From NCBI GenBank assembly GCA_963920705.1, contig CAWUCO010000268.1, positions 3,224,001-3,288,000 of the forward strand: a stretch of 64,000 bases of DNA. Direction: 5' to 3'. The DNA comes from Odiellus spinosus (lineage: Eukaryota > Arthropoda > Arachnida > Opiliones > Phalangiidae). The position numbers and the translations under genes are program-made. The stretch's first letter is position 1. Every line of letters starts with the position of its first letter. Shown here piece after piece: positions 10,683-44,700 of the stretch. A model generated the notes under the pieces. That model was not told where the DNA came from. It ran no database searches and saw only the letters and a list, made by a program, of their open reading frames with translations.

Positions 10683-10687
10683 CTTTC

Positions 10688-15214: not shown

Positions 15215-15321
15215 CACTACCAAATAGCGGGCAGAAAACAAAGACATCAAGATAACATTAGCAAAATAAATTTTCAACACCGGTAATCCTGAGAACTAGG
15301 TTCTACAAAATCTTCCTGAAT
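15215..15321 (-). other. 5'-terminal leader of the LINE
   Basis: 107 bp of unique, non-satellite sequence between the outer 377-bp copy and the satellite junction. In element orientation it begins ATTCAGGAAGATTTTGTAGA. No open frame or TATA box is recognised. Its presence upstream of the tandem copies could mean either that the insertion is full length or that a truncated third unit of different sequence lies here. Confidence 0.65.
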
Positions 15322-15759
15322 AATCCAATAATCTTGGATTTTTAAGTGTTTTTGGTTTATTTTAACCAATTTTATATTTGTCACAATTTTAAAATTTAGA
15401 CAAAACCAAAGTCATTCGAAAGAGCAATTAATGGACAGTCTAAATAATAAGAGTTTTCAAAAATCCGTTGAAAAACAAGAAAAATATGGCCAATTCAAGA
15501 AATCATAGAATATCAAAATAGTCAAATTTCAGATTTTCAAAATTCGCTTTTTGATATTAGATGCTTTTTGAATTGTCCATATTTTCCATGTTTTTCAACG
15601 GATTTTCCAAAACTCTAGTTTTTTAGATAGACCAATATTTGCTCTTTCGAGTGGTCTTAATTTTGTCTAAATCGCTTAAAAATCAAAAGTTTTGTGACCA
15701 TTTGAATCCAATAATCTTGGATTTTTAAGCGTTTTTGCTTAATTTTAACCAATTTTATA

Positions 15760-16530: not shown

Positions 16531-18064
16531 TTGTCACAATTTTGCAATTTAGACAAAACCAAAGTCATTCGAAAGAGCAATTAATGGACAGTCTAAATAA
16601 TAAGAGTTTTCAAAAATCCGTTGAAAAACAAGAAAAATATGGCGAATTCAAGAAATCATAGAATATCAAAATAGTCAAATTTCAGATTTTCAAAATTCGC
16701 TTTTTGATATTAGATGCTTTTTGAATTGTCCATATTTTCCATGTTTTTCAACGGATTTTCCAAAACTCTAGTTTTTTAGATAGACCAATATTTGCTCTTT
16801 CGAGTGGTCTTAATTTTGTCTAAATCGCTTAAAAATCAAAAGTTTTGTGACCATTTGAATCCAATAATCTTGGATTTTTAAGCGTTTTTGCTTAATTTTA
16901 ACCAATTTTATATTGGTCACAATTTTGCAATTTAGACAAAACCAAAGTCATTCGACAGAGCAATTAATGGACAGTCTAAATAACAAGAGTTTTCAAAAAT
17001 CCGTTGAAAAACAAGAAAAATATGGCCAATTCAAGAAACCATACAATATCAAAATAGTAAAATTTCAGATTTTCAAAATTCGCTTTTTGATATTAGATGC
17101 TTTTTGAATTGTCCATATTTTCCATGTTTTTCAACGGATTTTCCAAAACTCTAGTTTTTTAGATAGACCAATATTTGCTCTTTCGAGTAGTCTTAATTTT
17201 GTCTAAATCGCTTAAAAATCAAAAGTTTTGTGTCCATTTGAATCCAATAATCTTGGATTTTTAAGTGTTTTTGCTTTATTTTAACCAATTTTATATTTGT
17301 CACAATTTTGCAATTTACACAAAACCAAAGTCATTCGAAAGAGCAATTAATGGACAGTCTAAATAATAAGAGTTTTCAAAAATCCGTTGAAAAACAAGAA
17401 AAATATGGCCAATTCAAGAAATCATAGAATATCAAAATAGTCAAATTTCAGATTTTCAAAATTCGCTTTTTGATATTAGATGCTTTTTGAATAGTCCATA
17501 TTTTCCATGTTTTTCAACGCATTTTCCAAAACTCTAGTTTTTTAGATAGACCAATATTTGCTCTTTCGAGTGGTCTTAATTTTGTCTAAATCGCTTAAAA
17601 ATCAAAAGTTTTGTGACCATTTGAATCCAATAATCTTGGATTTTTAAGCGTTTTTGCTTAATTTTAACCAATTTTATATTGGTCACAATTTTGCAATTTA
17701 GACAAAACCAAAGTCATTCGAAAGAGCAATTAATGGACAGTCTAAATAACAAGAGTTTTCAAAAATCCGTTGAAAAACAAGAAAAATATGGCCATTTAAG
17801 AAACCATACAATATCAAAATAGTAAAATTTCAGATTTTCAAAATTCGCTTTTTGATATTAGATGTTTTTTGAATTGTCCATATTTTCCATGTTTTTCAAC
17901 GGATTTTCCAAAAATCTTGTTTTTTAGATAGACCAATATTTGCTCTTTCGAGTAGTCTTAATTTTGTCTAAATCGCTTAAAAATCAAAAGTTTTGTGACC
18001 ATTTGAATCCAATAATCTTGGATTTTTAAGCGTTTTTGCTTAATTTTAACCAATTTTATATTGG

Positions 18065-21060: not shown

Positions 21061-21886
21061 ATTTGAATCCAATAATCTTGGATTTTTAAGCGTTTTTGCT
21101 TAATTTTAACCAATTTTATATTGGTCACAATTTTGCAATTTACACAAAACCAAAGTCATTCGAAAGAGCAATTAATGGACAGTCTAAATAACAAGAGTTA
21201 TCAAAAATCCGTTGAAAAACAAGAAAAATATGGCCAATTCAAGAAACCATACAATATCAAAATAGTAAAATTTCAGATTTTCAAAATTCGCTTTTTGATA
21301 TTAGATGTTTTTTGAATTGTCCATATTTTCCATGTTTTTCAACGGATTTTCCAAAACTCTTGTTTTTTAGATAGACCAATATTTGCTCTTTCGAGTAGTC
21401 TTAATTTTGTCTAAATCGCTTAAAAATCAAAAGTTTTGTGTCCATTTGAATCCAATAATCTTGGATTTTTAAGTGTTTTTGCTTTATTTTAACCAATTTT
21501 ATATTTGTCACAATTTTGCAATTTATACAAAACCAAAGTCATTCGAAAGAGCAATTAATGGACAGTCTAAATAATAAGAGTTTTCAAAAATCCGTTGAAA
21601 AACAAGAAAAATATGGCCAATTCAAGAAATCATAGAATATCAAAATAGTCAAATTTCAGATTTTCAAAATTCGCTTTTTGATATTAGATGCTTTTTGAAT
21701 TGTCCATATTTTCCATGTTTTTCAACGGATTTTCCAAAACTCTAGTTTTTTAGATAGACCAATATTTGCTCTTTCGAGTGGTCTTAATTTTGTCTAAATC
21801 GCTTAAAAATCAAAAGTTTTGTGACCATTTGAATCCAATAATCTTGGATTTTTAAGCGTTTTTGCTTAATTTTAACCAATTTTATA

Positions 21887-24184
21887 TTGGTCACAATTTT
21901 GCAATTTAGACAAAACCAAAGTCATTCGAAAGAGCAATTAATGGACAGTCTAAATAACAAGAGTTTTCAAAAATCCGTTGAAAAACAAGAAAAATATGGC
22001 CAATTCAAGAAACCATACAATATCAAAATAGTAAAATTTCAGATTTTCAAAATTCGCTTTTTGATATTAGATGTTTTTTGAATTGTCCATATTTTCCATG
22101 TTTTTCAACGGATTTTCCAAAACTCTTGTTTTTTAGATAGACCAATATTTGCTCTTTCGAGTAGTCTTAATTTTGTCTAAATCGCTTAAAAATCAAAAGT
22201 TTTGTGTCCATTTGAATCCAATAATCTTGGATTTTTAAGCGTTTTTGCTTAATTTTAACCAATTTTATATTGGTCACAATTTTTCAATTTAGACAAAACC
22301 AAAGTCATTCGAAAGAGCAATTAATGGACAGTCTAAATAATAAGAGTTTTCAAAAATCCGTTGAAAAACAAGAAAAATATGGCCAATTCAAGAAATCATA
22401 GAATATCAAAATAGTCAAATTTCAGATTTTCAAAATTCGCTTTTTGATATTAGATGCTTTTTGAATTGTCCATATTTTCCATGTTTTTCAACGGATTTTC
22501 CAAAACTCTAGTTTTTTAGATAGACCAATATTTGCTCTTTCGAGTGGTCTTAATTTTGTCTAAATCGCTTAAAAATCAAAAGTTTTGTGACCATTTGAAT
22601 CCAATAATCTTGGATTTTTAAGCGTTTTTGCTTAATTTTAACCAATTTTATATTGGTCACAATTTTGCAATTTAGACAAAACCAAAGTCATTCGAAAGAG
22701 CAATTAATGGACAGTCTAAATAACAAGAGTTTTCAAAAATCCGTTGAAAAACAAGAAAAATATGGCCAATTCAAGAAACCATACAATATCAAAATAGTAA
22801 AATTTCAGATTTTCAAAATTCGCTTTTTGATATTAGATGTTTTTTGAATTGTCCATATTTTCCATGTTTTTCAACGGATTTTCCAAAACTCTTGTTTTTT
22901 AGATAGACCAATATTTGCTCTTTCGAGTAGTCTTAATTTTGTCTAAATCGCTTAAAAATCAAAAGTTTTGTGTCCATTTGAATCCAATAATCTTGGATTT
23001 TTAAGCGTTTTTGCTTAATTTTAACCAATTTTATATTGGTCACAATTTTGCAATTTAGACAAAACCAAAGTCATTCGAAAGAGCAATTAATGGACAGTCT
23101 AAATAATAAGAGTTTTCAAAAATCCGTTGAAAAACAAGAAAAATATGGCCAATTCAAGAAATCATAGAATATCAAAATAGTCAAATTTCAGATTTTCAAA
23201 ATTCGCTTTTTGATATTAGATGCTTTTTGAATTGTCCATATTTTCCATGTTTTTCAACGGATTTTCCAAAACTCTAGTTTTTTAGATAGACCAATATTTG
23301 CTCTTTCGAGTGGTCTTAATTTTGTCTAAATCGCTTAAAAATCAAAAGTTTTGTGACCATTTGAATCCAATAATCTTGGATTTTTAAGCGTTTTTGCTTA
23401 ATTTTAACCAATTTTATATTGGTCACAATTTTGCAATTTAGACAAAACCAAAGTCATTCGAAAGAGCAATTAATGGACAGTCTAAATAACAAGAGTTTTC
23501 AAAAATCCGTTGAAAAACAAGAAAAATATGGCCAATTCAAGAAACCATACAATATCAAAATAGTAAAATTTCAGATTTTCAAAATTCGCTTTTTGATATT
23601 AGATGTTTTTTGAATTGTCCATATTTTCCATGTTTTTCAACGGATTTTCCAAAACTCTTGTTTTTTAGATAGACCAATATTTGCTCTTTCGAGTAGTCTT
23701 AATTTTGTCTAAATCGCTTAAAAATCAAAAGTTTTGTGTCCATTTGAATCCAATAATCTTGGATTTTTAAGCGTTTTTGCTTAATTTTAACCAATTTTAT
23801 ATTGGTCACAATTTTGCAATTTAGACAAAACCAAAGTCATTCGAAAGAGCAATTAATGGACAGTCTAAATAATAAGAGTTTTCAAAAATCCGTTGAAAAA
23901 CAAGAAAAATATGGCCAATTCAAGAAATCATAGAATATCAAAATTGTCAAATTTCAGATTTTCAAAATTCGCTTTTTGATATTAGATGCTTTTTGAATTG
24001 TCCATATTTTCCATGTTTTTCAACGGATTTTCCAAAACTCTAGTTTTTTAGATAGACCAATATTTGCTCTTTCGAGTGGTCTTAATTTTGTCTAAATCGC
24101 TTAAAAATCAAAAGTTTTGTGACCATTTGAATCCAATAATCTTGGATTTTTAAGCGTTTTTGCTTAATTTTAACCAATTTTATA
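21887..24184 (+). repeat. Dimeric higher-order repeat, 766-bp period, three copies
   Basis: Alternating A (AACCATACAATATC, ending GTGTCC) and B (AATCATAGAATATC, ending GTGACC) monomers repeat with an exact period of 766 bp at 21887, 22653 and 23419. Copies are nearly identical; one visible difference is TTTTTCAATTTAG near 22281. It then changes into the A-B-C trimer organisation. Confidence 0.85.
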
Positions 24185-24952
24185 TTGGTCACAATTTTGC
24201 AATTTAGACAAAACCAAAGTCATTCGAAAGAGCAATTAATGGACAGTCTAAATAACAAGAGTTTTCAAAAATCCGTTGAAAAACAAAAGAAAAATATGGC
24301 CAATTCAAGAAACCATACAATATCAAAATAGTAAAATTTAAGATTTTCAAAATTCGCTTTTTGATATTAGATGCTTTTTGAATTGTCCATATTTTCCATG
24401 TTTTTCAACAGATTTTCCAAAACTCTAGTTTTTTAGATAGACCAATATTTGCTCTTTCGAGTGGTCTTAATTTTGTCTAAATCGCTTAAAAATCAAAAGT
24501 TTTGTGACCATTTGAATCCAATAATCTTGGATTTTTAAGCGTTTTTGCTTAATTTTAACCAATTTTATATTGGTCACAATTTTGCAATTTAGACAAAACC
24601 AAAGTCATTCGAAAGAGCAATTAATGGACAGTCTAAATAACAAGAGTTTTCAAAAATCCGTTGAAAAACAAGAAAAATATGGCCAATTCAAGAAATCATA
24701 GAATATCAAAATAGTCAAATTTCAGATTTTCAAAATTCGCTTTTTGATATTAGATGCTTTTTGAATTGTCCATATTTTCCATGTTTTTCAACGGATTTTC
24801 CAAAACTCTAGTTTTTTAGATAGACCAATATTTGCTCTTTCGAGTGGTCTTAATTTTGTCTAAATCGCTTAAAAATCAAAAGTTTTGTGACCATTTGAAT
24901 CCAATAATCTTGGATTTTTAAGCGTTTTTGCTTAATTTTAACCAATTTTATA

Positions 24953-27900
24953 TTGGTCACAATTTTGCAATTTAGACAAAACCAAAGTCATTCGAAAGAG
25001 CAATTAATGGACAGTCTAAATAACAAGAGTTTTCAAAAATCCGTTGAAAAACAAGAAAAATATGGCCAATTCAAGAAACCATACAATATCAAAATAGTAA
25101 AATTTCAGATTTTCAAAATTCGCTTTTTGATATTAGATGTTTTTTGAATTGTCCATATTTTCCATGTTTTTCAACGGATTTTCCAAAACTCTTGTTTTTT
25201 AGATAGACCAATATTTGCTCTTTCGAGTAGTCTTAATTTTGTCTAAATCGCTTAAAAATCAAAAGTTTTGTGTCCATTTGAATCCAATAATCTTGGATTT
25301 TTAAGCGTTTTTGCTTAATTTTAACCAATTTTATATTGGTCACAATTTTGCAATTTAGACAAAACCAAAGTCATTCGAAAGAGCAATTAATGGACAGTCT
25401 AAATAATAAGAGTTTTCAAAAATCCGTTGAAAAACAAGAAAAATATGGCCAATTCAAGAAATCATAGAATATCAAAATAGTCAAATTTCAGATTTTCAAA
25501 ATTCGCTTTTTGATATTAGATGCTTTTTGAATTGTCCATATTTTCCATGTTTTTCAACGGATTTTCCAAAACTCTAGTTTTTTAGATAGACCAATATTTG
25601 CTCTTTCGAGTGGTCTTAATTTTGTCTAAATCGCTTAAAAATCAAAAGTTTTGTGACCATTTGAATCCAATAATCTTGGATTTTTAAGCGTTTTTGCTTA
25701 ATTTTAACCAATTTTATATTGGTCACAATTTTGCAATTTAGACAAAACCAAAGTCATTCGAAAGAGCAATTAATGGACAGTCTAAATAACAAGAGTTTTC
25801 AAAAATCCGTTGAAAAACAAAAGAAAAATATGGCCAATTCAAGAAACCATACAATATCAAAATAGTAAAATTTAAGATTTTCAAAATTCGCTTTTTGATA
25901 TTAGATGCTTTTTGAATTGTCCATATTTTCCATGTTTTTCAACGGATTTTCCAAAACTCTAGTTTTTTAGATAGACCAATATTTGCTCTTTCGAGTGGTC
26001 TTAATTTTGTCTAAATCGCTTAAAAATCAAAAGTTTTGTGACCATTTGAATCCAATAATCTTGGATTTTTAAGCGTTTTTGCTTAATTTTAACCAATTTT
26101 ATATTGGTCACAATTTTGCAATTTAGACAAAACCAAAGTCATTCGAAAGAGCAATTAATGGACAGTCTAAATAACAAGAGTTTTCAAAAATCCGTTGAAA
26201 AACAAGAAAAATATGGCCAATTCAAGAAACCATACAATATCAAAATAGTAAAATTTCAGATTTTCAAAATTCGCTTTTTGATATTAGATGTTTTTTGAAT
26301 TGTCCATATTTTCCATGTTTTTCAACGGATTTTCCAAAACTCTTGTTTTTTAGATAGACCAATATTTGCTCTTTCGAGTAGTCTTAATTTTGTCTAAATC
26401 GCTTAAAAATCAAAAGTTTTGTGTCCATTTGAATCCAATAATCTTGGATTTTTAAGTGTTTTTGCTTTATTTTAACCAATTTTATATTTGTCACAATTTT
26501 GCAATTTACACAAAACCAAAGTCATTCGAAAGAGCAATTAATGGACAGTCTAAATAATAAGAGTTTTCAAAAATCCGTTGAAAAACAAGAAAAATATGGC
26601 CAATTCAAGAAATCATAGAATATCAAAATAGTCAAATTTCAGATTTTCAAAATTCGCTTTTTGATATTAGATGCTTTTTGAATTGTCCATATTTTCCATG
26701 TTTTTCAACGGATTTTCCAAAACTCTAGTTTTTTAGATAGACCAATATTTGCTCTTTCGAGTGGTCTTAATTTTGTCTAAATCGCTTAAAAATCAAAAGT
26801 TTTGTGACCATTTGAATCCAATAATCTTGGATTTTTAAGCGTTTTTGCTTAATTTTAACCAATTTTATATTGGTCACAATTTTGCAATTTAGACAAAACC
26901 AAAGTCATTCGAAAGAGCAATTAATGGACAGTCTAAATAACAAGAGTTTTCAAAAATCCGTTGAAAAACAAAAGAAAAATATGGCCAATTCAAGAAACCA
27001 TACAATATCAAAATAGTAAAATTTAAGATTTTCAAAATTCGCTTTTTGATATTAGATGCTTTTTGAATTGTCCATATTTTCCATGTTTTTCAACGGATTT
27101 TCCAAAACTCTAGTTTTTTAGATAGACCAATATTTGCTCTTTCGAGTGGTCTTAATTTTGTCTAAATCGCTTAAAAATCAAAAGTTTTGTGACCATTTGA
27201 ATCCAATAATCTTGGATTTTTAAGCGTTTTTGCTTAATTTTAACCAATTTTATATTGGTCACAATTTTGCAATTTAGACAAAACCAAAGTCATTCGAAAG
27301 AGCAATTAATGGACAGTCTAAATAACAAGAGTTTTCAAAAATCCGTTGAAAAACAAGAAAAATATGGCCAATTCAAGAAACCATACAATATCAAAATAGT
27401 AAAATTTCAGATTTTCAAAATTCGCTTTTTGATATTAGATGTTTTTTGAATTGTCCATATTTTCCATGTTTTTCAACGGATTTTCCAAAACTCTTGTTTT
27501 TTAGATAGACCAATATTTGCTCTTTCGAGTAGTCTTAATTTTGTCTAAATCGCTTAAAAATCAAAAGTTTTGTGTCCATTTGAATCCAATAATCTTGGAT
27601 TTTTAAGTGTTTTTGCTTTATTTTAACCAATTTTATATTTGTCACAATTTTGCAATTTACACAAAACCAAAGTCATTCGAAAGAGCAATTAATGGACAGT
27701 CTAAATAATAAGAGTTTTCAAAAATCCGTTGAAAAACAAGAAAAATATGGCCAATTCAAGAAATCATAGAATATCAAAATAGTCAAATTTCAGATTTTCA
27801 AAATTCGCTTTTTGATATTAGATGCTTTTTGAATTGTCCATATTTTCCATGTTTTTCAACGGATTTTCCAAAACTCTAGTTTTTTAGATAGACCAATATT

Positions 27901-29366
27901 TGCTCTTTCGAGTGGTCTTAATTTTGTCTAAATCGCTTAAAAATCAAAAGTTTTGTGACCATTTGAATCCAATAATCTTGGATTTTTAAGCGTTTTTGCT
28001 TAATTTTAACCAATTTTATATTGGTCACAATTTTGCAATTTAGACAAAACCAAAGTCATTCGAAAGAGCAATTAATGGACAGTCTAAATAACAAGAGTTT
28101 TCAAAAATCCGTTGAAAAACAAGAAAAATATGGCCAATTCAAGAAACCATACAATATCAAAATAGTAAAATTTCAGATTTTCAAAATTCGCTTTTTGATA
28201 TTAGATGTTTTTTGAATTGTCCATATTTTCCATGTTTTTCAACGGATTTTCCAAAACTCTTGTTTTTTAGATAGACCAATATTTGCTCTTTCGAGTAGTC
28301 TTAATTTTGTCTAAATCGCTTAAAAATCAAAAGTTTTGTGTCCATTTGAATCCAATAATCTTGGATTTTTAAGCGTTTTTGCTTAATTTTAACCAATATT
28401 ATATTGGTCACAATTTTGCAATTTAGACAAAACCAAAGTCATTCGAAAGAGCAATTAATGGACAGTCTAAATAATAAGAGTTTTCAAAAATCCGTTGAAA
28501 AACAAGAAAAATATGGCCAATTCAAGAAATCATAGAATATCAAAATAGTCAAATTTCAGATTTTCAAAATTCGCTTTTTGATATTAGATGCTTTTTGAAT
28601 TGTCCATATTTTCCATGTTTTTCAACGGATTTTCCAAAACTCTAGTTTTTTAGATAGACCAATATTTGCTCTTTCGAGTGGTCTTAATTTTGTCTAAATC
28701 GCTTAAAAATCAAAAGTTTTGTGACCATTTGAATCCAATAATCTTGGATTTTTAAGCGTTTTTGCTTAATTTTAACCAATTTTATATTGGTCACAATTTT
28801 GCAATTTAGACAAAACCAAAGTCATTCGAAAGAGCAATTAATGGACAGTCTAAATAACAAGAGTTTTCAAAAATCCGTTGAAAAACAAAAGAAAAATATG
28901 GCCAATTCAAGAAACCATACAATATCAAAATAGTAAAATTTAAGATTTTCATAATTCGCTTTTTGATATTAGATGCTTTTTGAATTGTCCATATTTTCCA
29001 TGTTTTTCAACGGATTTTCCAAAACTCTAGTTTTTTAGATAGACCAATATTTGCTCTTTCGAGTGGTCTTAATTTTGTCTAAATCGCTTAAAAATCAAAA
29101 GTTTTGTGACCATTTGAATCCAATAATCTTGGATTTTTAAGCGTTTTTGCTTAATTTTAACCAATTTTATATTGGTCACAATTTTGCAATTTAGACAAAA
29201 CCAAAGTCATTCGAAAGAGCAATTAATGGACAGTCTAAATAACAAGAGTTTTCAAAAATCCGTTGAAAAACAAGAAAAATATGGCCAATTCAAGAAACCA
29301 TACAATATCAAAATAGTAAAATTTCAGATTTTCAAAATTCGCTTTTTGATATTAGATGTTTTTTGA
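24953..29366 (+). repeat. Trimeric A-B-C higher-order repeat, 1151-bp period, with one A-B dimer inserted
   Basis: Starts of A-type monomers at 24953, 26104 and 27255 are 1151 bp apart, as are 28021 and 29172. The interval 27255-28021 is only 766 bp, so one unit lacks the C monomer. C carries the 2-bp insertion ACAAAAGAAAA and AAATTTAAGATTTTC. Coexistence of A-B and A-B-C in one stretch is the expected result of unequal exchange. Confidence 0.82.
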
Positions 29367-29554
29367 ATTGTCCATATTTTCCATGTTTTTCAACGGATTT
29401 TCCAAAACTCTTGTTTTTTAGATAGATCAATATTTGCTCTTTCGAGTAGTCTTAATTTTGTCTAAATCGCTTAAAAATCAAAAGTTTTGTGTCCATTTGA
29501 ATCCAATAATCTTGGATTTTTAAGTGTTTTTGCTTTATTTTAACCAATTTTATA

Positions 29555-31588
29555 TTTGTCACAATTTTGCAATTTAGACAAAACCAAAGTCATTCGAAAG
29601 AGCAATTAATGGACAGTCTAAATAATAAGAGTTTTCAAAAATCCGTTGAAAAACAAGAAAAATATGGCCAATTCAAGAAATCATAGAATATCAAAATAGT
29701 CAAATTTCAGATTTTCAAAATTCACTTTTTGATATTAGATGTTTTTTGAATTGGCTATATTTTCCATGTTTTTCAACGGATTTTCCAAAACTCTTGATTT
29801 TCAGATAGACCAATATTTGCTCTTTCGAGTGGTCTTAATTTTGTCTAAATCGCTTAAAAATCAAAAGTTTTGTGTCCATTTTAATCCAATAATCTTGGAT
29901 TTTTAAGCGTTTTTGCTTAATTTTAACCAATTTTATATTTGTCACAATTTTGCAATTTAGACAAAACCAAAGTCATTCGAAAGAGCAATTAATGGACAGT
30001 CTAAATAATAAGAGTTTTCAAAAATCCGTTGAAAAACAAGAAAAATATGGCCAATTCAAGAAATCATAGAATATCAAAATAGTCAAATTTCAGATTTTAA
30101 AAATTCGCTTTTCGATATTAGATGCTTTTTGAATTGGCTATATTTTCCATGTTTTTCAACGGATTTTCCAAAACTCTTGATTTTCAGATAGACCAATATT
30201 TGCTCTTTCGATTGGTCTTAATTTTGTCTAAATCGCTTAAAAATCAAAAGTTTTGTGTCCATTTGAATCCAATAATCTTGGATTTTTAAGTGTTTTTGCT
30301 TTATTTTAACCAATTTTATATTTGTCACAATTTTGCAATTTAGACAAAACCAAAGTCATTCGAAAGAGCAATTAATGGACAGTCTAAATAATAAGAGTTT
30401 TCAAAAATCCGTTGAAAAACAAGAAAAATATGGCCAATTCAAGAAATCATAGAATATCAAAATAGTCAAATTTCAGATTCTCAAAATTCACTTTTTGATA
30501 TTAGATGTTTTTTGAATTGGCTATATTTTCCATGTTTTTCAACGGATTTTCCAAAACTCTTGATTTTCAGATAGACCAATATTTGCTCTTTCGAGTGGTC
30601 TTAATTTTGTCTAAATCGCTTAAAAATCAAAAGTTTTGTGTCCATTTTAATCCAATAATCTTGGATTTTTAAGCGTTTTTGCTTAATTTTAACCAATTTT
30701 ATATTTGTCACAATTTTGCAATTTAGACAAAACCAAAGTCATTCGAAAGAGCAATTAATGGACAGTCTAAATAATAAGAGTTTTCAAAAATCCGTTGAAA
30801 AACAAGAAAAATATGGCCAATTCAAGAAATCATAGAATATCAAAATAGTCAAATTTCAGATTTTAAAAATTCGCTTTTTGATATTAGATGCTTTTTGAAT
30901 TGGCTATATTTTCCATGTTTTTTAACGGATTTTCCAAAACTCTTGATTTTCAGATAGACCAATATTTGCTCTTTCGAGTGGTCTTAATTTTGTCTAAATC
31001 GCTTAAAAATCAAAAGTTTTGTGTCCATTTTAATCCAATAATCTTGGATTTTTAAGCGTTTTTGCTTAATTTTAACCAATTTTATATTGGTCACAATTTT
31101 GCAATTTAGACAAAACCAAAGTCATTCGAAAGAGCAATTAATGGACAGTCTAAATAATAAGAGTTTTCAAAAATCCGTTGAAAAACAAGAAAAATATGGC
31201 CAATTCAAGAAATCATAGAATATCAAAATAGTCAAATTTCAGATTTTAAAAATTCGCTTTTTGATATTAGATGTTTTTTGAATTGTCCTTATTTTCCATG
31301 TTTTTCAACGGATTTTCCAAAACTCTTGATTTTCAGATAGACCAATATTTGCTCTTTCGAGTGGTCTTAATTTTGTCTAAATCGCTTAAAAATCAAAAGT
31401 TTTGTGTCCATTTGAATCCAATAATCTTGGATTTTTAAGCGTTTTTGCTTAATTTTAACCAATTTTATATTGGTCACAATTTTGCAATTTAGACAAAACC
31501 AAAGTCATTCGAAAGAGCAATTAATGGACAGTCTAAATAATAAGAGTTTTCAAAAATCCGTTGAAAAACAAGAAAAATATGGCCAATT
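29555..31588 (+). repeat. B-like monomers with CAGATAGACC, dimer period 766
   Basis: The last stretch before the orientation switch. Monomers have TTGATTTTCAGATAGACC and often TTTTAATCCAATAATC. The private variant ATTCACTTTTTG recurs at 29721 and 30487, 766 bp apart. No gene is seen. Confidence 0.75.
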
Positions 31589-31592
31589 CAAA
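31584..31592. other. Satellite orientation switch, forward to inverted
   Basis: Sequence up to CAATTCAA (ending about 31591) is a normal left arm (AACAAGAAAAATATGGCC). From AAAAACATCTAATATC on, it is the reverse complement of a right arm. CAATTCAA is common to both arms, so the exact point lies within these bases. No foreign sequence or gap separates the two orientations. Confidence 0.9.
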
Positions 31593-34500
31593 AAACATCT
31601 AATATCAAAAAGCGAATTTTTAAAATCTGAAATTTGACTATTTTGATATTGTATAATTTCTTGAATTGGCCATATTTTTCTTGTTTTTCAACGGATTTTT
31701 GGAAACTCTTGTTATTTAGACTGTCCATTAATTGCTCTTTCGAATGACTTTGGTTTTGTCTAAATTGCAAAATTGTGACAAATATAAAATTGGTTAAAAT
31801 AAAGCAAAAACACTTAAAAATCCAAGATTATTGGATTAAAATGGACACAAAACTTTTGATTTTTAAGCGATTTAGACATAATTGAGACCACTCGAAAGAG
31901 CAAATATTGGTCTATCTAAAAAACAAGAGTTTTGGAAAATCCGTTGAAAAACATGGAAAATATGGACAATTAAAAAACATCTAATATCAAAAAGCGAATT
32001 TTGAAAATCTGAAATTTGACTATTTTGATATTCTATGATTTCTTGAATTGGCCATATTTTTCTTGTTTTTCAACGGATTTTTGAAAACTCTTATTATTTA
32101 GACTGTCCATTAATTGCTCTTTCGAATGACTTTGGTTTTTTGTCTAAATTGCAAAATTGTGACAAATATAAAATTGGTTAAAATAAAGCAAAAACGCTTA
32201 AAAATCCAAGATTATTGGATTCAAATGGACACAAAACTTTTGATTTTTAAGCGATTTAGACAAAATTAAGACTACTCGAAAGAGCAAATATTGGTCTATC
32301 TAAAAAACAAGAGTTTTGGAAAATCCGTTGAAAAACATGGAAAATATAGCCAATTCAAAAAACATCTAATATCAAAAAGCGAATTTTTAAAATCTGAAAT
32401 TTGACTATTTTGATATTCTATGATTTCTTGAATTGGCCATATTTTTCTTGTTTTTCAACGGATTTTTGAAAACTCTTATTATTTAGACTGTCCATTAATT
32501 GCTCTTTCGAATAACTTTGGTTTTGTCTAAATTGCAAAATTGTGACAAATATAAAATTGGTTAAAATTAAGCAAAAACGCTTAAAAATCCAAAATTATAG
32601 GATTCAAATGGACACAAAACTTTTGATTTTTAAGCGATTTAGACAAAATTAAGACCACTCGAAAGAGCAAATATTGGTCTATCTAAAAAACAAGAGTTTT
32701 GGAAAATCCGTTGAAAAACATGGAAAATATGGACAATTCAAAAAACATCTAATATCAAAAAGCGAATTTTTAAAATCTGAAATTTGACTATTTTGATATT
32801 GTATGATTTCTTGAATTCGCCATATTTTTCTTGTTTTTCAACGGATTTTTGAAAACTCTTATTATTTAGACTGTCCATTAATTGCTCTTTCGAATGACTT
32901 TGGTTTTGTCTAAATTGCAAAATTGTGACAAATATAAAATTGGTTAAAATTAAGCAAAAACGCTTCAAAATCCAAGATTATTGGATTAAAATGGACACAA
33001 AACTTTTGATTTTTAAGCGATTTAGACAAAATTAGACCACTCGAAAGAGCAAATATTGGTCTATCTAAAAAACATGAGTTTTGGAAAATCCCTTGAAAAA
33101 CATGGAAAATATGGACAATTCAAAAAACATCTAATATCAAAAAGCGAATTTCGAAAATCTGAAATTTGACTATTTTGATATTCTATGATTTCTTGAATTG
33201 GCCATATTTTTCTTGTTTTTCAACGGATTTTTGAAAACTCTTATTATTTAGACTGTCCATTAATTGCTCTTTCGAATGACTTTGGTTTTGTCTAAATTGC
33301 AAAATTGTGACAAATGTAAAATTGGTTAAAATAAAGCAAAAACACTTAAAAATCCAAGATTATTGGATTCAAATAGACACAAAACTTTTGATTTTTAAGC
33401 GATTTAGACAAATTTAAGACTACTCGAAAGAGCAAATATTGGTCTATCTAAAAAACAAGAGTTTTGGAAAATCCGTTGAAAAACATGGAAAATATAGCCA
33501 ATTCAAAAAACATCTAATATCAAAAAGCGAATTTTTAAAATCTGAAATTTGACTATTTTGATATTGTATGGTTTCTTGAATTGGCCATATTTTTCTTGTT
33601 TTTCAACGGATTTTTGAAAACTCTTATTATTTAGACTGTCCATTAATTGCTCTTTCGAATGACTTTGGTTTTGTCTAAATTGCAAAATTGTGACAATTAT
33701 AAAATTGGTTAAAATTAAGCAAAAACACTTAAAAATCCAAGATTATTGGATTCAAATAGACACAAAACTTTTGATTTTTAAGCGATTTAGACAAAATTAA
33801 GACCACTCGAAAGAGCAAATATTGGTCTATCTGAAAATTAAGAGTTTTGGAAAATCCGTTGAAAAACATGGAAAATATGGACAATTCAAAAAGCATCTAA
33901 TATCAAAAAGCGAATTTTGAAAATCTGAAATTTAACTATTTTGATATTCTATGATTTCTTGAATTGGCCATATTTTTCTTGTTTTTCAACAGATTTTTGA
34001 AAACTCTTGTTATTTAGACTGTCCATTAATTGCTCTTTCGAAAGACTTTGGTTTTGTCTAAATTGCAAAATTGTGACAAATATAAAATTGGTTAAAATAA
34101 AGCAAAAACACTTAAAAATCCAAGATTATTGGATTCAAATGGACACAAAACTTTTGATTTTTAAGCGATTTAGACAAAATTAAGACTACTCGAAAGAGCA
34201 AATATTGGTCTATCTAAAAAACAAGAGTTTTGGAAAATCCGTTGAAAAACATGGAAAATATGGACAATTCAAAAAACATCTAATATCAAAAAGCGAATTT
34301 TGAAAATCTGAAATTTAACTATTTTGATATTCTATGATTTCTTGAATTGGCCATATTTTTCTTGTTTTTCAACAGATTTTTGAAAACTCTTGTTATTTAG
34401 ACTGTCCATTAATTGCTCTTTCGAAAGACTTTGGTTTTGTCTAAATTGCAAAATTGTGACAAATATAAAATTGGTTAAAATAAAGCAAAAACACTTAAAA

Positions 34501-37500
34501 ATCCAAGATTATTGGATTCAAATGGACACAAAACTTTTGATTTTTAAGCGATTTAGACAAAATTAAGACTACTCGAAAGAGCAAATATTGGTCTATCTAA
34601 AAAACAAGAGTTTTGGAAAATCCGTTGAAAAACATGGCAAATATGGACAATTCAAAAAACATCTAATATCAAAAAGCTAATTTTGAAAATCTGAAATTTG
34701 ACTATTTTGATATTGTATGGTTTCTCGAATTGGCCATATTTTTCTTGTTTTTCAACGGATTTTTGAAAACTCTTGTTATTTAGACTGTCCATTAATTGCT
34801 CTTTCGAATGACTTTGGTTTTGTCTAAATTGCCAAGACGTGACAAATATAAAATTGGTTAAAATAAAGCAAAAACACTTAAAAATCCAAGATTATTGGAT
34901 TCAAATGGACACAAAACTTTTGATTTTTAAGCGATTTAGACAAAATTAAGACCACTCGAAAGAGCAAATATTGGTCTATCTGAAAATCAAGAGTTTTGGA
35001 AAATCCGTTGAAAAACATGGAAAATATGGACAATTCAAAAAGCATCTAATATCAAAAAGCGAATTTTGAAAATCTGAAATTTGACTATTTTGATATTCTA
35101 TGATTTCTTGAATTGGCCATATTTTTCTTGTTTTTCAACGGATTTTTGAAAACTCTTATTATTTAGACTGTCCATAATTGCTCTTTCGAATGACTTTGGT
35201 TTTGTCTAAATTGCAAAATTGTGACAAATGTAAAATTGGTTAAAATAAAGCAAAAACACTTAAAAATCCAAGATTATTGGATTCAAATAGACACAAAACT
35301 TTTGATTTTTAAGCGATTTAGACAAAATTAAGACTACTCGAAAGAGCAAATATTGGTCTATCTAAAAAACAAGAGTTTTGGAAAATCCGTTGAAAAACAT
35401 GGAAAATATAGCCAATTCAAAAAACATCTAATATCAAAAAGCGAATTTTTAAAATCTGAAATTTGACTATTTTGATATTGTATGGTTTCTTGAATTGGCC
35501 ATATTTTTCTTGTTTTTCAACGGATTTTTGAAAACTCTTATTATTTAGATTGTCCATTAATTGCTCTTTCGAATGACTTTGGTTTTGTCTAAATTGCAAA
35601 ATTGTGACAATTATAAAATTGGTTAAAATTAAGCAAAAACACTTAAAAATCCAAGATTATTGGATTCAAATAGACACAAAACTTTTGATTTTTAAGCGAT
35701 TTAGACAAAATTAAGACCACTCGAAAGAGCAAATATTGGTCTATCTGAAAATCAAGAGTTTTGGAAAATCCGTTGAAAAACATGGAAAATATGGACAATT
35801 CAAAAAGCATCTAATATCAAAAAGCGAATTTTGAAAATCTGAAATTTAACTATTTTGATATTCTATGATTTCTTGAATTGGCCATATTTTTTTGTTTTTC
35901 AACGGATTTTTGAAAACTCTTATTATTTAGACTGTCCATTAATTGCTCTTTCGAATGACTTTGGTTTTGTCTAAATTGCAAAATTGTGACAAATATAAAA
36001 TTGGTTAAAATTAAGCAAAAACGCTTCAAAATCCAAGATTATTGGATTAAAATGGACACAAAACTTTTGATTTTTAAGCGATTTAGACAAAATTAGACCA
36101 CTCGAAAGAGCAAATATTGGTCTATCTAAAAAACATGAGTTTTGGAAAATCCCTTGAAAAACATGGAAAATATGGACAATTCAAAAAACATCTAATATCA
36201 AAAAGCGAAATTTGAAAATCTGAAATTTGACTATTTTGATATTCTATGATTTCTTGAATTGGCCATATTTTTCTTGTTTTTCAACGGATTTTTGAAAACT
36301 CTTATTATTTAGACTGTCCATTAATTGCTCTTTCGAATGACTTTGGTTTTGTCTAAATTGCAAAATTGTGACAAATGTAAAATTGGTTAAAATAAAGCAA
36401 AAACACTTAAAAATCCAAGATTATTGGATTCAAATAGACACAAAACTTTTGATTTTTAAGCGATTTAGACAAAATTAAGACTACTCGAAAGAGCAAATAT
36501 TGGTCTATCTAAAAAACAAGAGTTTTGGAAAATCCGTTGAAAAACATGGAAAATATAGCCAATTCAAAAAACATCTAATATCAAAAAGCGAATTTTTAAA
36601 ATCTGAAATTTGACTATTTTGATATTGTATGGTTTCTTGAATTGGCCATATTTTTCTTGTTTTTCAACGGATTTTTGAAAACTCTTATTATTTAGACTGT
36701 CCATTAATTGCTCTTTCGAATGACTTTGGTTTTGTTTAAATTGCAAAATTGTGACAAATATAAAATTGGTTAAAATTAAGCAAAAACGCTTAAAAATCCA
36801 AGATTATAGGATTCAAATGGACACAAAACTTTTGATTTTTAAGCGATTTAGACAAAATTAAGACCACTCGAAAGAGCAAATATTTGTCTATCTAAAAAAC
36901 ATGGGTTTTGGAAAATCCATTGAAAAACATGGAAAATATGGACAATTCAAAAAACATCTAATATCAAAAAGCGAATTTTTAAAATCTGAAATTTGACTAT
37001 TTTGATATTGTATGATTTCTTGAATTGGCCATATTTTTCTTGTTTTTCAACGGATTTTTGAAAACTCTTGTTATTTAGACTGTCCATTAATTGCTCTTTC
37101 GAAAGACTTTGGTTTTGTCTAAATTGCAAAATTGTGACAAATATAAAATTGGTTAAAATAAAGCAAAAACACTTAAAAATCCAAGATTATTGGATTCAAA
37201 TGGACACAAAACTTTTGATTTTTAAGCGATTTAGACAAAATTAAGACTACTCGAAAGAGCAAATATTGGTCTATCTAAAAAACAAGAGTTTTGGAAAATC
37301 CGTTGAAAAACATGGAAAATATGGACAATTCAAAAAACATCTAATATCAAAAAGCGAATTTTGAAAATCTGAAATTTGACTATTTTGATATTGTATGGTT
37401 TCTCGAATTGGCCATATTTTTCTTGTTTTTCAACGGATTTTTGAAAACTCTTGTTATTTAGACTGTCCATTAATTGCTCTTTCGAAAGACTTTGGTTTTG

Positions 37501-40500
37501 TCTAAATTGCCAAGACGTGACAAATATAAAATTGGTTAAAATAAAGCAAAAACACTTAAAAATCCAAGATTATTGGATTCAAATGGACACAAAACTTTTG
37601 ATTTTTAAGCGATTTAGACAAAATTAAGACCACTCGAAAGAGCAAATATTGGTCTATCTGAAAATCAAGAGTTTTGGAAAATCCATTGAAAAACATGGAA
37701 AATATGGACAATTCAAAAAACATCTAATATCAAAAAGCGAATTTTTAAAATCTGAAATTTGACTATTTTGATATTGTATGATTTCTTGAATTGGCCATAT
37801 TTTTCTTGTTTTTCAACGGATTTTTGAAAACTCTTGTTATTTAGACTGTCCATTAATTGCTCTTTCGAAAGACTTTGGTTTTTGTCTAAATTGCAAAATT
37901 GTGACAAATATAAAATTGGTTAAAATAAAGCAAAAACACTTAAAAATCCAAGATTATTGGATTCAAATGGACACAAAACTTTTGATTTTTAAGCGATTTA
38001 GACAAAATTAAGACTACTCGAAAGAGCAAATATTGGTCTATCTAAAAAACAAGAGTTTTGGAAAATCCGTTGAAAAACATGGCAAATATGGACAATTCAA
38101 AAAACATCTAATATCAAAAAGCTAATTTTGAAAATCTGAAATTTGACTATTTTGATATTGTATGGTTTCTCAAATTGGCCATATTTTTCTTGTTTTTCAA
38201 CGGATTTTTGAAAACTCTTGTTATTTAGACTGTCCATTAATTGCTCTTTCGAATGACTTTGGTTTTGTCTAAATTGCCAAGACGTGACAAATATAAAATT
38301 GGTTAAAATAAAGCAAAAACACTTAAAAATCCAAGATTATTGGATTCAAATGGACACAAAACTTTTGATTTTTAAGCGATTTAGACAAAATTAAGACCAC
38401 TCGAAAGAGCAAATATTGGTCTATCTGAAAATCAAATGTTTTGGAAAATCCGTTGAAAAACATGGAAAATATGGACAATTCAAAAAGCATCTAATATCAA
38501 AAATCGAATTTTGAAAATCTGAAATTTGACTATTTTGATATTCTATGATTTCTTGAATTGGCCATATTTTTCTTGTTTTTCAACGGATTTTTGAAAACTC
38601 TTATTATTTAGACTGTCCATTAATTGCTCTTTCGAATGACTTTGGTTTTGTCTAAATTGCAAAATTGTGACAAATGTAAAATTGGTTAAAATAAAGCAAA
38701 AACACTTAAAAATCCAAGATTATTGGATTCAAATAGACACAAAACTTTTGATTTTTAAGCGATTTAGACAAAATTAAGACTACTCGAAAGAGCAAATATT
38801 GGTCTATCTAAAAAACAAGAGTTTTGGAAAATCCGTTGAAAAACATGGAAAATATAGCCAATTCAAAAAACATCTAATATCAAAAAGCGAATTTTTAAAA
38901 TCTGAAATTTGACTATTTTGATATTGTATGGTTTCTTGAATTGGCCATATTTTTCTTGTTTTTCAACGGATTTTTGAAAACTCTTATTATTTAGACTGTC
39001 CATTAATTGCTCTTTCGAATGACTTTGGTTTTGTCTAAATTGCAAAATTGTGACAATTATAAAATTGGTTAAAATTAAGCAAAAACACTTAAAAATCCAA
39101 GATTATTGGATTCAAATAGACACAAAACTTTTGATTTTTAAGCGATTTAGACAACATTAAGACTACTCGAAAGAGCAAATATTGGTCTATCTAAAAAACA
39201 AGAGTTTTGGAAAATCCGTTGAAAAACATGGAAAATATGGACAATTCAAAAAACATCTAATATCAAAAAGCGAATTTTGAAAATCTGAAATTTGACTATT
39301 TTGATATTGTATGGTTTCTCGAATTGGCCATATTTTTCTTGTTTTTCAACGGATTTTTGAAAACTCTTGTTATTTAGACTGTCCATTAATTGCTCTTTCG
39401 AATGACTTTGGTTTTGTCTAAATTGCCAAGACGTGACAAATATAAAATTGGTTAAAATAAAGCAAAAACACTTAAAAATCCAAGATTATTGGATTCAAAT
39501 GGACACAAAACTTTTAATTTTTAAGCGATTTAGACAAAATTAAGACCACTCGAAAGAGCAAATATTGGTCTATCTGAAAATCAAGAGTTTTGGAAAATCC
39601 GTTGAAAAACATGGAAAATATAGCCAATTCAAAAAACATCTAATATCAAAAAGCGAATTTTTAAAATCTGAAATTTGACTATTTTGATATTCTATGATTT
39701 CTTGAATTGGCCATATTTTTCTTGTTTTTCAACGGATTTTTGAAAACTCTTATTATTTAGACTGTCCATTAATTGCTCTTTCGAAAGACTTTGGTTTTGT
39801 CTAAATTGCAAAATTGTGACAATTATAAAATTGGTTAAAATAAAGCAAAAACACTTAAAAATCCAAGATTATTGGATTCAAATAGACACAAAACTTTTGA
39901 TTTTTAAGCGATTTAGACAAAATTAAGACTACTCGAAAGAGCAAATATTGGTCTATCTAAAAAACAAGAGTTTTGGAAAATCCGTTGAAAAACATGGAAA
40001 ATAGAGCCAATTCAAAAAACATCTAATATCAAAAAGCGAATTTTTAAAATCTGAAAATTGACTATTTTGATATTGTATGGTTTCTTGAATTGGCCATATT
40101 TTTCTTGTTTTTCAACGGATTTTTGAAAACTCTTATTATTTAGACTGTCCATTAATTGCTCTTTCGAATGACTTTGGTTTTGTCTAAATTGCAAAATTGT
40201 GACAATTATAAAATTGGTTAAAATTAAGCAAAAACACTTAAAAATCCAAGATTATTGGATTCAAATGGACACAAAACTTTTGATTTTTAAGCGATTTAGA
40301 CAAAATTAAGACCACTCGAAAGAGCAAATATTGGTCTATCTGAAAATCAAGAGTTTTGGAAAATCCGTTGAAAAACATGGAAAATATGGACAATTCAAAA
40401 AGCATCTAATATCAAAAAGCGAATTTTGAAAATCTGAAATTTGACTATTTTGATATTCTATGATTTCTTGAATTGGCCATATTTTTCTTGTTTTTCAACG

Positions 40501-41265
40501 GATTTTTGAAAACTCTTATTATTTAGACTGTCCATTAATTGCTCTTTCGAAAGACTTTGGTTTTGTCTAAATTGCAAAATTGTGACAATTATAAAATTGG
40601 TTAAAATAAAGCAAAAACACTTAAAAATCCAAGATTATTGGATTCAAATAGACACAAAACTTTTGATTTTTAAGCGATTTAGACAAAATTAAGACTACTC
40701 GAAAGAGCAAATATTGGTCTATCTAAAAAACAAGAGTTTTGGAAAATCCGTTGAAAAACATGGAAAATAGAGCCAATTCAAAAAACATCTAATATCAAAA
40801 AGCGAATTTTTAAAATCTGAAATTTGACTATTTTGATATTGTATGATTTCTTGAATTGGCCATATTTTTCTTGTTTTTCAACGGATTTTTGAAAACTCTT
40901 GTTATTTAGACTGTCCATTAATTGCTCTTTCGAATGACTTTGGTTTTGTCTAAATTGCAAAATTGTGACAAATATAAAATTGGTTAAAATAAAGCAAAAA
41001 CACTTAAAAATCCAAGATTATTGGATTCAAATGGACACAAAACTTTTGATTTTTAAGCGATTTAGACAAAATTAAGACTACTCGAAAGAGCAAATATTGG
41101 TCTATCTAAAAAACAAGAGTTTTGGAAAATCCGTTGAAAAACATGGAAAATATGGACAATTCAAAAAACATCTAATATCAAAAAGCGAATTTTGAAAATC
41201 TGAAATTTGACTATTTTGATATTGTATGGTTTCTCGAATTGGCCATATTTTTCTTGTTTTTCAAC
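31588..41265 (-). repeat. Inverted satellite block, about 25 monomers
   Basis: The same 383-bp satellite reads on the minus strand throughout this 9.7-kb block; the recurring open frames and all subtype landmarks appear reverse-complemented. Internal copies are visible: AACATGAGTTTTGG with AATCCCTTG at 33073 and 36135 (offset about 3062 bp, eight monomers). TTGCCAAGACGTGAC occurs at about 34830, 37509, 38276 and 39425. The latter subtype is shared with the forward array just to the right (41.4-44.5 kb). No gene is seen. Confidence 0.95.
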
Positions 41266-41272
41266 GGATTTT
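41255..41272. other. Satellite orientation switch, inverted to forward
   Basis: TGGCCATATTTTTCTTG upstream is the reverse complement of a left arm. CCAAAACTCTTGATTTTCAG downstream is a forward right arm. The shared stretch TGTTTTTCAACGGATTTT (18 bp) hides the exact crossover. Like the first switch, it falls inside the dyad arms. Confidence 0.9.
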
Positions 41273-41799
41273 CCAAAACTCTTGATTTTCAGATTGACCA
41301 ATATTTGCTCTTTCGAGTGGTCTTAATTTTGTCTAAATCGCTTAAAAATCAAAAGTTTTGTGTCCATTTGAATCCAATAATCTTGGATTTTTAAGTGTTT
41401 TTGCTTAATTTTAACCAATTTTATATTTGTCACGTCTTGGCAATTTAGACAAAACCAAAGTCATTCGAAAGAGCAATTAATGGACAGTCTAAATAACAAG
41501 AGTTTTCAAAAATCCGTTGAAAAACAAGACAAATATGGCCAATTCGAGAAACCATACAATATCAAAATAGTCAAATTTCAGATTTTCAAAATTCGCTTTT
41601 TGATATTAGATGTTTTTTGAATTGTCCATATTTTCCATGTTTTTCAACGGATTTTCCAAAACTCTTGATTTTCAGATAGACCAATATTTGCTCTTTCGAG
41701 TGGTCTTAATTTTGTCTAAATCTCTTAAAAATCAAAAGTTTTGTGTCCATTTGAATCCAATAATCTTGGATTTTTAAGTGTTTTTGCTTAATTTTAACC

Positions 41800-44700
41800 A
41801 ATTTTATAATTGTCACAATTTTGCAATTTAGACAAAACCAAAGTCATTCGAAAGAGCAATTAATGGACAGTCTAAATAATAAGAGTTTTCAAAAATCCGT
41901 TGAAAAACAAGAAAAATATGGCCAATTCAAGAAACCATACAATATCAAAATAGTCAAATTTCAGATTTTAAAAATTCGCTTTTTGATATTAGATGTTTTT
42001 TAATTGGCTATATTTTCCATGTTTTTCAACGGATTTTCCAAAACTCTTGTTTTTTAGATAGACCAATATTTGCTCTTTCGAGTAGTGTTAATTTTGTCTA
42101 AATCGCTTAAAAATCAAAAGTTTTGTGTCCATTTGAATCCAATAATCTTGTATTTTTAAGTGTTTTTGCTTAATTTTAACCAATTTTATATTTGTCACGT
42201 CTTGGCAATTTAGACAAAACCAAAGTCATTCGAAAGAGCAATTAATGGACAGTCTAAATAACAAAAGTTTTCAAAAATCCGTTGAAAAACAAGAAAAATA
42301 TGGCCAATTCGAGAAACCATACAATATCAAAATAGTCAAATTTCAGATTTTCAAAATTCGCTTTTTGATATTAGATGTTTTTTGAATTGTCCATATTTTC
42401 CATGTTTTTCAACGGATTTTCCAAAACTCTTGATTTTCAGATAGACCAATATTTGCTCTTTCGAGTGGTCTTAATTTTGTCTAAATCGCTTAAAAATCAA
42501 AAGTTTTGTGTCCATTTGAATCCAATAATCTTGGATTTTTAAGTGTTTTTGCTTTATTTTAACCAATTTTATATTTGTCACAATTTTGCAATTTAGACAA
42601 AACCAAAGTCATTCGAAAGAGCAATTAATGGGCAGTCTAAATAATAAGAGTTTTCAAAAATCCGTTGAAAAACAAGAAAAATATGGCCAATTCAAGAAAC
42701 CATACAATATCAAAATAGTCAAATTTCAGATTTTCAAAATTCGCTTTTTGATATTAGATGTTTTTTGAATTGTCCATATTTTCCATGTTTTTCAACGGAT
42801 TTTCCAAAACTCATGTTTTTTAGATAGACCAATATTTGCCCTTTCGAGTGGTCTAATTTTGTCTAAAACGCTTAAAAATCAAAAGTTTTGTGTCCATTTG
42901 AATCCAATAATCTTGATTTTTAAGTGTTTTTGCTTAATTTTAACCAATTTTATATTTGTCACAATTTTGCAATTTAGACAAAACCAAAGTCATTCGAAAG
43001 AGCAATTAATGGACAGTCTAAATAATAAGAGTTTTCAAAAATCCGTTGAACAACAAGAAAAATATGGCCAATTCAAGAAACCATACAATATCAAAATAGT
43101 CAAATTTCAGATTTTCAAAATTCGCTTTTTGATATTAGATGTTTTTTGAATTGTCCATATTTTCCATGTTTTTCAACGGATTTTCCAAAACTCTTGATTT
43201 TCAGATAGACCAATATTTGCTCTTTCGAGTGGTCTTAATTTTGTCTAAATCGCTTAAAAATCAAAAGTTTTGTGTCCATTTGAATCCAATAATCTTGGAT
43301 TTTTAAGTGTTTTTGCTTAATTTTAACCAATTTTATATTTGTCACAATTTTGCAATTTAGACAAAACCAAAGTCATTCGAAAGAGCAATTAATGGACAGT
43401 CTAAATAATAAGAGTTTTCAAAAACCGTTGAACAACAAGAAAAATATGGCCAATTCAAGAAATCATAGAATATCAAAATAGTCAAATTTCAGATTTTAAA
43501 AATTCGCTTTTTGATATTAGATGTTTTTTGAATTGTCCATTTTTTCCATGTTTTTCAAGGGATTTTCCAAAACTCATGTTTTTTAGATAGACCAATATTT
43601 GCTCTTTCGAGTGGTCTAATTTTGTCTAAAACGCTTAAAAATCAAAAGTTTTGTGTCCATTTGAATCCAATAATCTTGATTTTTAAGTGTTTTTGCTTAA
43701 TTTTAACCAATTTAATATTTGTCACAATTTTGCAATTTAGACAAAACCAAAGTCATTCGAAAGAGCAATTAATGGACAGTCTAAATAATAAGAGTTTTCA
43801 AAAACCGTTGAACAACAAGAAAAATATGGCCAATTCAAGAAATCATAGAATATCAAAATAGTCAAATTTCAGATTTTAAAAATTCGCTTTTTGATATTAG
43901 ATGTTTTTTGAATTGTCCATTTTTTCCATGTTTTTCAAGGGATTTTCCAAAACTCATGTTTTTTAGATAGACCAATATTTGCTCTTTCGAGTGGTCTAAT
44001 TTTGTCTAAAACGCTTAAAAATCAAAAGTTTTGTGTCCATTTGAATCCAATAATCTTGGATTTTTAAGCGTTTTTGCTTAATTTTAACCAATTTTATATT
44101 TGTCACAATTTTGCAATTTAGACAAAACCAAAGTCATTCGAAAGAGCAATTAATGGACAGTCTAAATAATAAGAGTTTTCAAAAATCCGTTGAAAAACAA
44201 GAAAAATATGGCCAATTCAAGAAACCATACAATATCAAAATAGTCAAATTTCAGATTTTAAAAATTCGCTTTTTGATATTAGATGTTTTTTAATTGGCTA
44301 TATTTTCCATGTTTTTCAACGGATTTTCCAAAACTCTTGTTTTTTAGATAGACCAATATTTGCTCTTTCGAGTAGTGTTAATTTTGTCTAAATCGCTTAA
44401 AAATCAAAAGTTTTGTGTCCATTTGAATCCAATAATCTTGTATTTTTAAGTGTTTTTGCTTAATTTTAACCAATTTTATATTTGTCACGTCTTGGCAATT
44501 TAGACAAAACCAAAGTCATTCGAAAGAGCAATTAATGGACAGTCTAAATAACAAAAGTTTTCAAAAATCCGTTGAAAAACAAGAAAAATATGGCCAATTC
44601 GAGAAACCATACAATATCAAAATAGTCAAATTTCAGATTTTCAAAATTCGCTTTTTGATATTAGATGTTTTTTGAATTGTCCATATTTTCCATGTTTTTC

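Follow-up and report, generated by a model that had tools for sequence, protein, structure and literature searches.

Mirror-register junctions of a 9.7-kb inverted block in a dyad-bearing satellite array of Odiellus spinosus

We analyzed a stretch of 64,000 bases from the genome assembly of the opilionid Odiellus spinosus (contig CAWUCO010000268.1, positions 3,224,001 to 3,288,000; hereafter the window), which consists of a tandem satellite with a 383-bp repeat and one retrotransposon insert, and in which a block of the satellite runs in the reverse orientation. The window contains no N bases and has ~26–28% GC outside the insert. A wraparound alignment against both strands divided the AT-rich satellite into 159 units, including 151 full monomers. 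All group counts below use these 151; the eight partial units were excluded from them and examined individually at the junctions. Three segments lie on the plus strand, namely segment A (1–10667, 27 full monomers), segment B (15322–31583, 42 full monomers), which forms the left flank of the block, and segment D (41273–64000, 58 full monomers), which forms its right flank. They were delimited by Tandem Repeats Finder (period of 383 and 96% matches in segment A) and by the alignment. The inverted block (31584–41254, minus strand) was recognized from the two-strand alignment and from unit identities as 24 full and two partial monomers of the same satellite. Mean identity was 96.5–97.7% within and between segments, and that of the block 96.8% internally and 96.5–96.7% against the forward segments. 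A pattern search for the satellite in viral and genome contigs gave no match.

The monomer is a quasi-palindrome. Positions 3–281 of its 383-bp consensus (positions in this consensus are indicated by 'cons') align with their own reverse complement at ~80% identity (226 of 284 alignment columns). This dyad makes up 73% of the monomer and passes through the centre without a real spacer; the 'non-symmetric spacer' invoked by an earlier note on this DNA hardly exists. In the full forward monomer nearest to the left end of the block (31102–31484), self reverse-complement alignment places the left dyad arm (L, cons 3–141) at 31104–31242 on the plus strand and the right dyad arm (R, cons 143–281) at 31244–31382 in the minus sense. 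A second, weaker dyad (cons ~282–344, at 31383–31445 in the same monomer), with 73–74% identity, is used by neither of the two orientation switches described below. Perfect arm-to-arm tracts of at least 8 bp in the majority sequence measure 18, 12, 12, 10, 9, 9, and 8 bp. The single-strand fold predicted for one monomer (30719–31101) reaches −86.3 kcal/mol, compared with a mean of −33.3 in 100 shuffled sequences (z = −15), which predicts a strong fold-back potential for one monomer strand, a point in favor of the explanation preferred below.

With a switch penalty of 25, the two-strand alignment changes strand within the satellite at only two points, from plus to minus at 31584, where forward cons 99 is followed by reverse cons 184, and from minus to plus at 41255, where reverse cons 87 is followed by forward cons 198. 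The other strand switches listed at this penalty all fall inside the retrotransposon insert. When the satellite parts alone were aligned with penalties of 12, 8, 6, and 5, the same two switches were recovered and no further ones. The stretch between them measures ~9.7 kb, about 25 repeats, and is a sharp feature, real in the sequence as given; the inversion and its size agree with what the earlier note had described. Tandem Repeats Finder was blind to the flip and reported 15322–64000 as a single array.

The two arms differ at many sites, which allows the junctions to be located with nearly single-base precision. We typed the junction bases by their frequencies in the 151 full monomers. At the left junction, the last clear forward-type base is at 31573, or at 31583 if the criterion is relaxed, and reverse-type bases begin at 31592. 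The strict exchange tract therefore spans 8 bp (31584–31591; cons 100–107, the mirror of 177–184), and it widens to 31574–31591 if the reverse parent carried 185G, an allele found in 30 of the 151 monomers. At the right junction, the last reverse-type base is at 41254 and the first forward-type bases are at 41273–41274, leaving an 18-bp tract (41255–41272; cons 198–215, the mirror of 69–86). No longer stretch is identical between the arms of the majority sequence, and the right switch thus used the best tract available in ordinary monomers. Beyond this tract, one isolated base of reverse type occurs at 41295 (cons 238T), an allele also present in one of the full monomers. Neither junction contains foreign or unaligned sequence, and the two junction sequences are unlike each other, both being ordinary arm sequence. 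The earlier note had placed the flips at 31584–31592 and 41255–41272, within sequence common to a left arm and a reverse-complemented right arm and with no intervening DNA. Base-by-base typing agrees with it to within a base, and the shared sequence consists of the 8-bp and 18-bp tracts.

Both junctions are in mirror register: the forward and reverse positions add up to 284, the mirror sum of the dyad. The mere location of the two breakpoints inside the dyad carries little information, because the dyad fills so much of the monomer that two random breakpoints would both fall in it about half of the time (0.73 squared). Non-homologous breakage and rejoining that hit the arms by chance would thus account for the location at a probability of ~50%, the one point in its favor. 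It does not predict the register, however. Among 200,000 simulated random-phase junctions between actual monomers, only 0.2% shared at least 8 bp and 0.02% at least 18 bp, whereas among simulated junctions in mirror register 46% and 10.5% did so, respectively. We consequently disfavor non-homologous rejoining as highly improbable. The rarity of such shared tracts in random phase, together with the register, makes guidance of both switches by homology the most likely course, and we conclude with good confidence that they arose by homology-guided exchange between opposed dyad arms belonging to different monomers. The proposal that recombination or template switching between internal inverted repeats reverses stretches of satellite holds in this respect, namely a homology-matched exchange between opposed arms, whereas an in-place turning of the 9.7-kb stretch is not established.

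Satellite arrays are error-prone in assembly, and a switch of orientation might be produced by joining reads of opposite strands through the quasi-palindromic monomer, or by a fold-back chimeric read. Several observations argue against such an artefact. The window has no N bases. A fold-back read predicts a near-identical inverted copy of the flank, and none was found. The block also possesses recurring variants of its own (308T, 23T, and 367C). Finally, the tracts of 18–39 bp that opposed arms share are far too short for the overlap joining of long reads. We accordingly consider an assembly error improbable.

The arrangement of the arms at the junctions bears on the mechanism. At the left junction the left arm passes into the mirror-matched point of a reversed right arm (L to R′), and at the right junction a reversed left arm passes into the matched point of a right arm (L′ to R). 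This pair of junctions is what a crossover inversion requires. It also separates the block from a satellite circle integrated in reverse orientation by one crossover, a source that might be imagined given that satellite arrays have been reported in extrachromosomal circles of Tribolium freemani (PMC13081366). By our reasoning, such an integration should interrupt the flanking array at a single point and leave the junctions L to R′ and R′ to L, but the right junction observed is L′ to R and the forward array resumes at cons 198, not near 100. We rejected circle integration on this topology, unless two separate crossovers are assumed, and regard it as very unlikely.

We favor the following scenario. 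If an L arm and an R arm ~25 monomers apart crossed over, the intervening array would be inverted, with the L to R′ and L′ to R junctions at its ends. The participating R arm would have been of an arm-converted type, or would have been converted during the event, in which case L and R would share a perfect tract of 39 bp (cons 69–107, equivalent to 177–215) containing both exchange tracts. The left flank would later have been remodelled by ordinary unequal exchange. We prefer this single crossover inversion, with a converted R arm and subsequent remodelling of the left flank, over paired template switching, although our confidence in it is evenly balanced against our doubts.

The converted arm is needed because of the first of several points that weigh against a single crossover. 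If the R arm carried the majority alleles, the two exchange tracts lie next to each other without overlapping, whereas one crossover needs one mirror position. Between the tracts are the pairs cons 87/197, 89/195, and 99/185, at each of which the L-arm base is found in both junctions. If the participating R arm was converted, one crossover accounts for both junctions. R arms of this kind, with L-type alleles at 185, 195, and 197, do exist in the window, in 5 of the 151 full monomers (starting at 4235, 4617, 5382, 5764, and 6529), the first providing an example at cons 177–215 (4411–4449, plus strand). The reverse complement of a converted R arm is identical to an ordinary left arm over 39 bp, as compared with 18 bp for two ordinary pairs that we tried. 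Single elements of the haplotype are more widespread, 185G as already mentioned and 195T without 197T in two further monomers. The converted monomers are found ~25 kb away from the block, in segment A, and they lack 57C, 228A, 233C, and 377G, the alleles characteristic of the junction unit reconstructed from units 73 and 99 (see below). Given this distance and the missing markers, the role of a converted R arm in the event is something that we infer. In the same region (4235–6911), a three-monomer higher-order unit of ~1147 bp repeats and bears the right arms converted at 185/195/197.

Further points for and against an in-place reversal came from the parents that it implies. Turning the block back pairs unit 72 with unit 98 and unit 73 with unit 99, and we scored both reconstructed parents by variant linkage. 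Parent 73+99 fits as a real monomer: its score of 2.08 equals or exceeds that of 27% of true monomers, and 10–20% of random pairings reach it. Parent 72+98, in turn, resembles a random pairing: its score of −2.80 equals or exceeds that of 6.6% of true monomers, and 44–80% of random pairings reach it. It joins the 106G of unit 98 to the 57T of unit 72, and the preceding unit 71 lacks a rare haplotype at cons 377–382, whereas all seven other units with 106G carry 57C and follow a unit with that haplotype. The abnormal score of 72+98 is due to this break in an otherwise complete linkage of 106G with 57C and with the preceding 377–382 haplotype. The break could result from a later unequal exchange in the left flank or from a copying mechanism.

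A copying mechanism of this kind would involve break-induced or fork-restart replication that switched template twice, with ~25 monomers copied in reverse between dyads, the block then being an inverted copy and not a turned piece. Replication-based models have been published for satellite arrays (PMC8997354). Such switching accounts for the exchange tracts that do not coincide, for the broken linkage between 57C and 106G in parent 72+98, and for the 377–382 haplotype common to the block and its right flank. That haplotype (377G, 378T, 379C, and 382G; the site is covered in 155 of the 159 units) occurs in the unit adjoining the block on its right (41434–41439, plus strand) and elsewhere in the window only in four block monomers (34832, 37510, 38277, and 39426) and two of the right flank (41824 and 44114), which indicates that the block and the right flank share ancestry. 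This relation of the block to local material counts in favor of the single crossover as well. Against paired switching, the window contains no evident source copy, as the five-monomer match in reversed order with the highest score on the opposite strand has 43 differences, compared with 4–5 in the closest direct duplications. In addition, parent 73+99 looks like a real monomer, and the two switch points lie close together in dyad coordinates, which independent switches do not require. Both exchange tracts fall within cons 69–107, where independent mirror-register switches would coincide about one time in five (35 of the 168 bases in arm-to-arm tracts of at least 6 bp). We therefore consider paired template switching a tenable but less probable origin of the block than the single crossover.

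The order of the block units speaks against a copy taken from the nearby array. Compared with the 14 nearest units of each flank, the reversed order of the block was no better than shuffled orders (P = 0.68 on the right and 0.52 on the left), a result that counts against template switching and led us to reject a fold-back copy of the adjacent flank; the forward order was slightly better than the reversed one (P = 0.29 and 0.15). The best opposite-strand run of a first scan (z = 5.8), which matched the units starting at 36744–38277 with those starting at 41255–42589 in reversed order, was treated as a reflection of shared haplotypes and not as a copied segment. Plain mean identities between the block ends and the flanks (0.965–0.968) displayed no useful pattern.

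One more result weighs against a recent inversion in place. By marker haplotypes, the left and right parts of the block are each closer to the flank on their own side, with a mean rho of −0.38 (one-sided permutation P = 0.024). This gradient is opposite to that expected from a recent in-place flip, but we give it little weight because the signal drops to −0.15 (P = 0.25) once the marker sites are removed. With 5, 8, 12, and 16 flanking monomers, P was 0.20, 0.056, 0.030, and 0.011 for the mean score, and 0.088, 0.080, 0.075, and 0.014 for the best score. The test also has uneven power, since control pseudo-blocks differed between the flanks, with rho from −0.36 to −0.63 for five placed in the forward right flank and from −0.23 to 0.14 for four in the left flank.

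The block may, moreover, have a history of its own. Three recurring variants are private to it, 308T in nine units, 23T in seven, and 367C in four, and none of them occurs in the other full monomers; three private variants with a count of at least four compare with 0–2 in 21 other windows of 24 monomers. This is suggestive, although not strong, evidence that the block constitutes an isolated lineage. Units within it recur at varied spacings (those at 33300, 35214, 36361, and 38660 differ pairwise by only 1–2 bases), which suggests that exchange continued within the block.

The earlier note had gone further and proposed that the dyad of the monomer might be the engine that reorients the array. 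The window contains a single pair of switches among 151 full monomers, and no micro-inversions were found in the satellite parts at penalties of 12, 8, 6, and 5. There is also no excess of exchange between arms. At 25 diagnostic pairs of positions, the base of the opposite arm accounts for 97 of 301 minor alleles, compared with ~120 expected from the substitution spectrum, and for 14 of 33 distinct allele types. Frequent general gene conversion between arms was rejected on this count, and the arms remain distinct. Only one converted haplotype, the three-site one described above, stands out, its five monomers having the appearance of a local amplification. The dyad probably made this event possible, but repeated reorientation of the array by the dyad is not supported in the window.

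Outside the block, the array contains a non-LTR (long terminal repeat) retrotransposon inserted on the minus strand at 10668–15321. It contains an uninterrupted frame of 909 amino acids (10811–13540) with a reverse transcriptase domain (PF00078, E = 3.5e-38) and an endonuclease match (PF03372) under the cut-off (22.3 versus 24.5 bits). Another stop-to-stop frame (13822–14460), 212 amino acids long, had no Pfam match. The element ends in a short TTA-type tail at its 3′ side and in two 377-bp units, 99% alike, at its 5′ side (14461–15215), and its insertion looks recent. When its protein was compared with viral contigs, two stretches matched a pattern and none was confirmed as a relative. Direct duplications occur in the forward segments as well. 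In segment A, 1172–3086 and 8058–9972 (and their neighbours), 18 monomers apart, differ at five sites in five monomers, a similarity far above the array average which probably records a large recent unequal exchange. In segment D, several overlapping direct duplications 5, 6, 8, 10, and 11 monomers apart between 49085 and 62117 reflect local amplification.

Inverted satellite subarrays are already known, and this block is a clean example of them, not a new phenomenon. The closest parallel is found in beetles of the genus Tribolium, where opposite-facing satellite subarrays, termed macro-dyad symmetries, have been described in T. madens, T. freemani, and T. castaneum and were stated to be documented only in this genus (PMC13081366, Veseljak et al. 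2026). According to that study, the arrangement in T. madens was confirmed on raw HiFi reads, the minor satellite TmSat2 has an intramonomer dyad with ~300-bp arms in 704 bp, and the inversion sites (2044 INV_1a and 3486 INV_1b sequences) are recurrent and conserved, with a degenerate subunit in TmSat1. As with TmSat1 and TmSat2, the O. spinosus array combines direct and inverted subarrays, each several kilobases long, of a single satellite, and its monomer has, as in TmSat2, a long internal dyad. It differs in that its two single junctions consist of ordinary monomer sequence; no recurrent conserved inversion-site sequence or degenerate subunit was seen, in a sample of only two junctions, and we do not assign the array to the Tribolium type. 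Built-in monomer dyads have also been mentioned for the satellites of Trichogramma brassicae (385 bp with 80-bp inverted repeats) and Tribolium brevicornis (1061 bp with ~470-bp segments), the former being similar to ours in length as well; the likeness is one of description only, and the accessible text of PMC13081366 describes no dyad-linked array inversions for these two species.

In human, inversions occur in the arrays of alpha-satellite higher-order repeats (HOR), HSat3, and beta-satellite, with a 1.7-Mb example on chromosome 1 (PMC10813616). There, as here, a block of tandem satellite lies in the reverse orientation. To our knowledge, alpha satellite has no monomer-wide dyad. Mirror-register exchange is not described for the human cases in what is available of PMC10813616. 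The same source reports that, in fission yeast, a crossover between centromeric inverted repeats produces either an inverted centre or isochromosomes. Crossing over between inverted repeats is the mechanism that we prefer for the O. spinosus block, with the difference that the yeast repeats flank a single centre, whereas arms of ~140 bp, ~80% identical, are present here in every monomer. The fission yeast repeats are also not known to form a satellite array. A further comparable case is the maize cent10 inversion, which split a CentC satellite array and was attributed to short homology (PMC8997354); it resembles the present one in rearranging a satellite array through short homology, although no monomer dyad is mentioned for maize in the part of that source available. 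Six fragments of the O. spinosus satellite sequence matched no satellite paper, the five papers that they hit being unrelated. Among the open-licence papers listed by our searches, none was seen that reports, by its title or the start of its abstract, satellite inversion junctions in mirror register with a monomer dyad.

In Tribolium, opposite-facing satellite blocks have been proposed to matter for (peri)centromeric chromatin (PMC13081366). Homology-guided exchange between dyad arms predicts that, wherever a dyad spans the monomer of a satellite, inversion junctions should lie in mirror register and in the longest tracts of arm-to-arm identity. A more speculative and rather unlikely reading is that the block was not turned in place but arose as a reversed copy through paired template switches at dyad arms, converted monomers with their longer perfect inverted repeat acting as hot spots. 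If this were true, a dyad-bearing satellite would seed its own inverted subarrays, which would provide a route to macro-dyads of the Tribolium type without selection.

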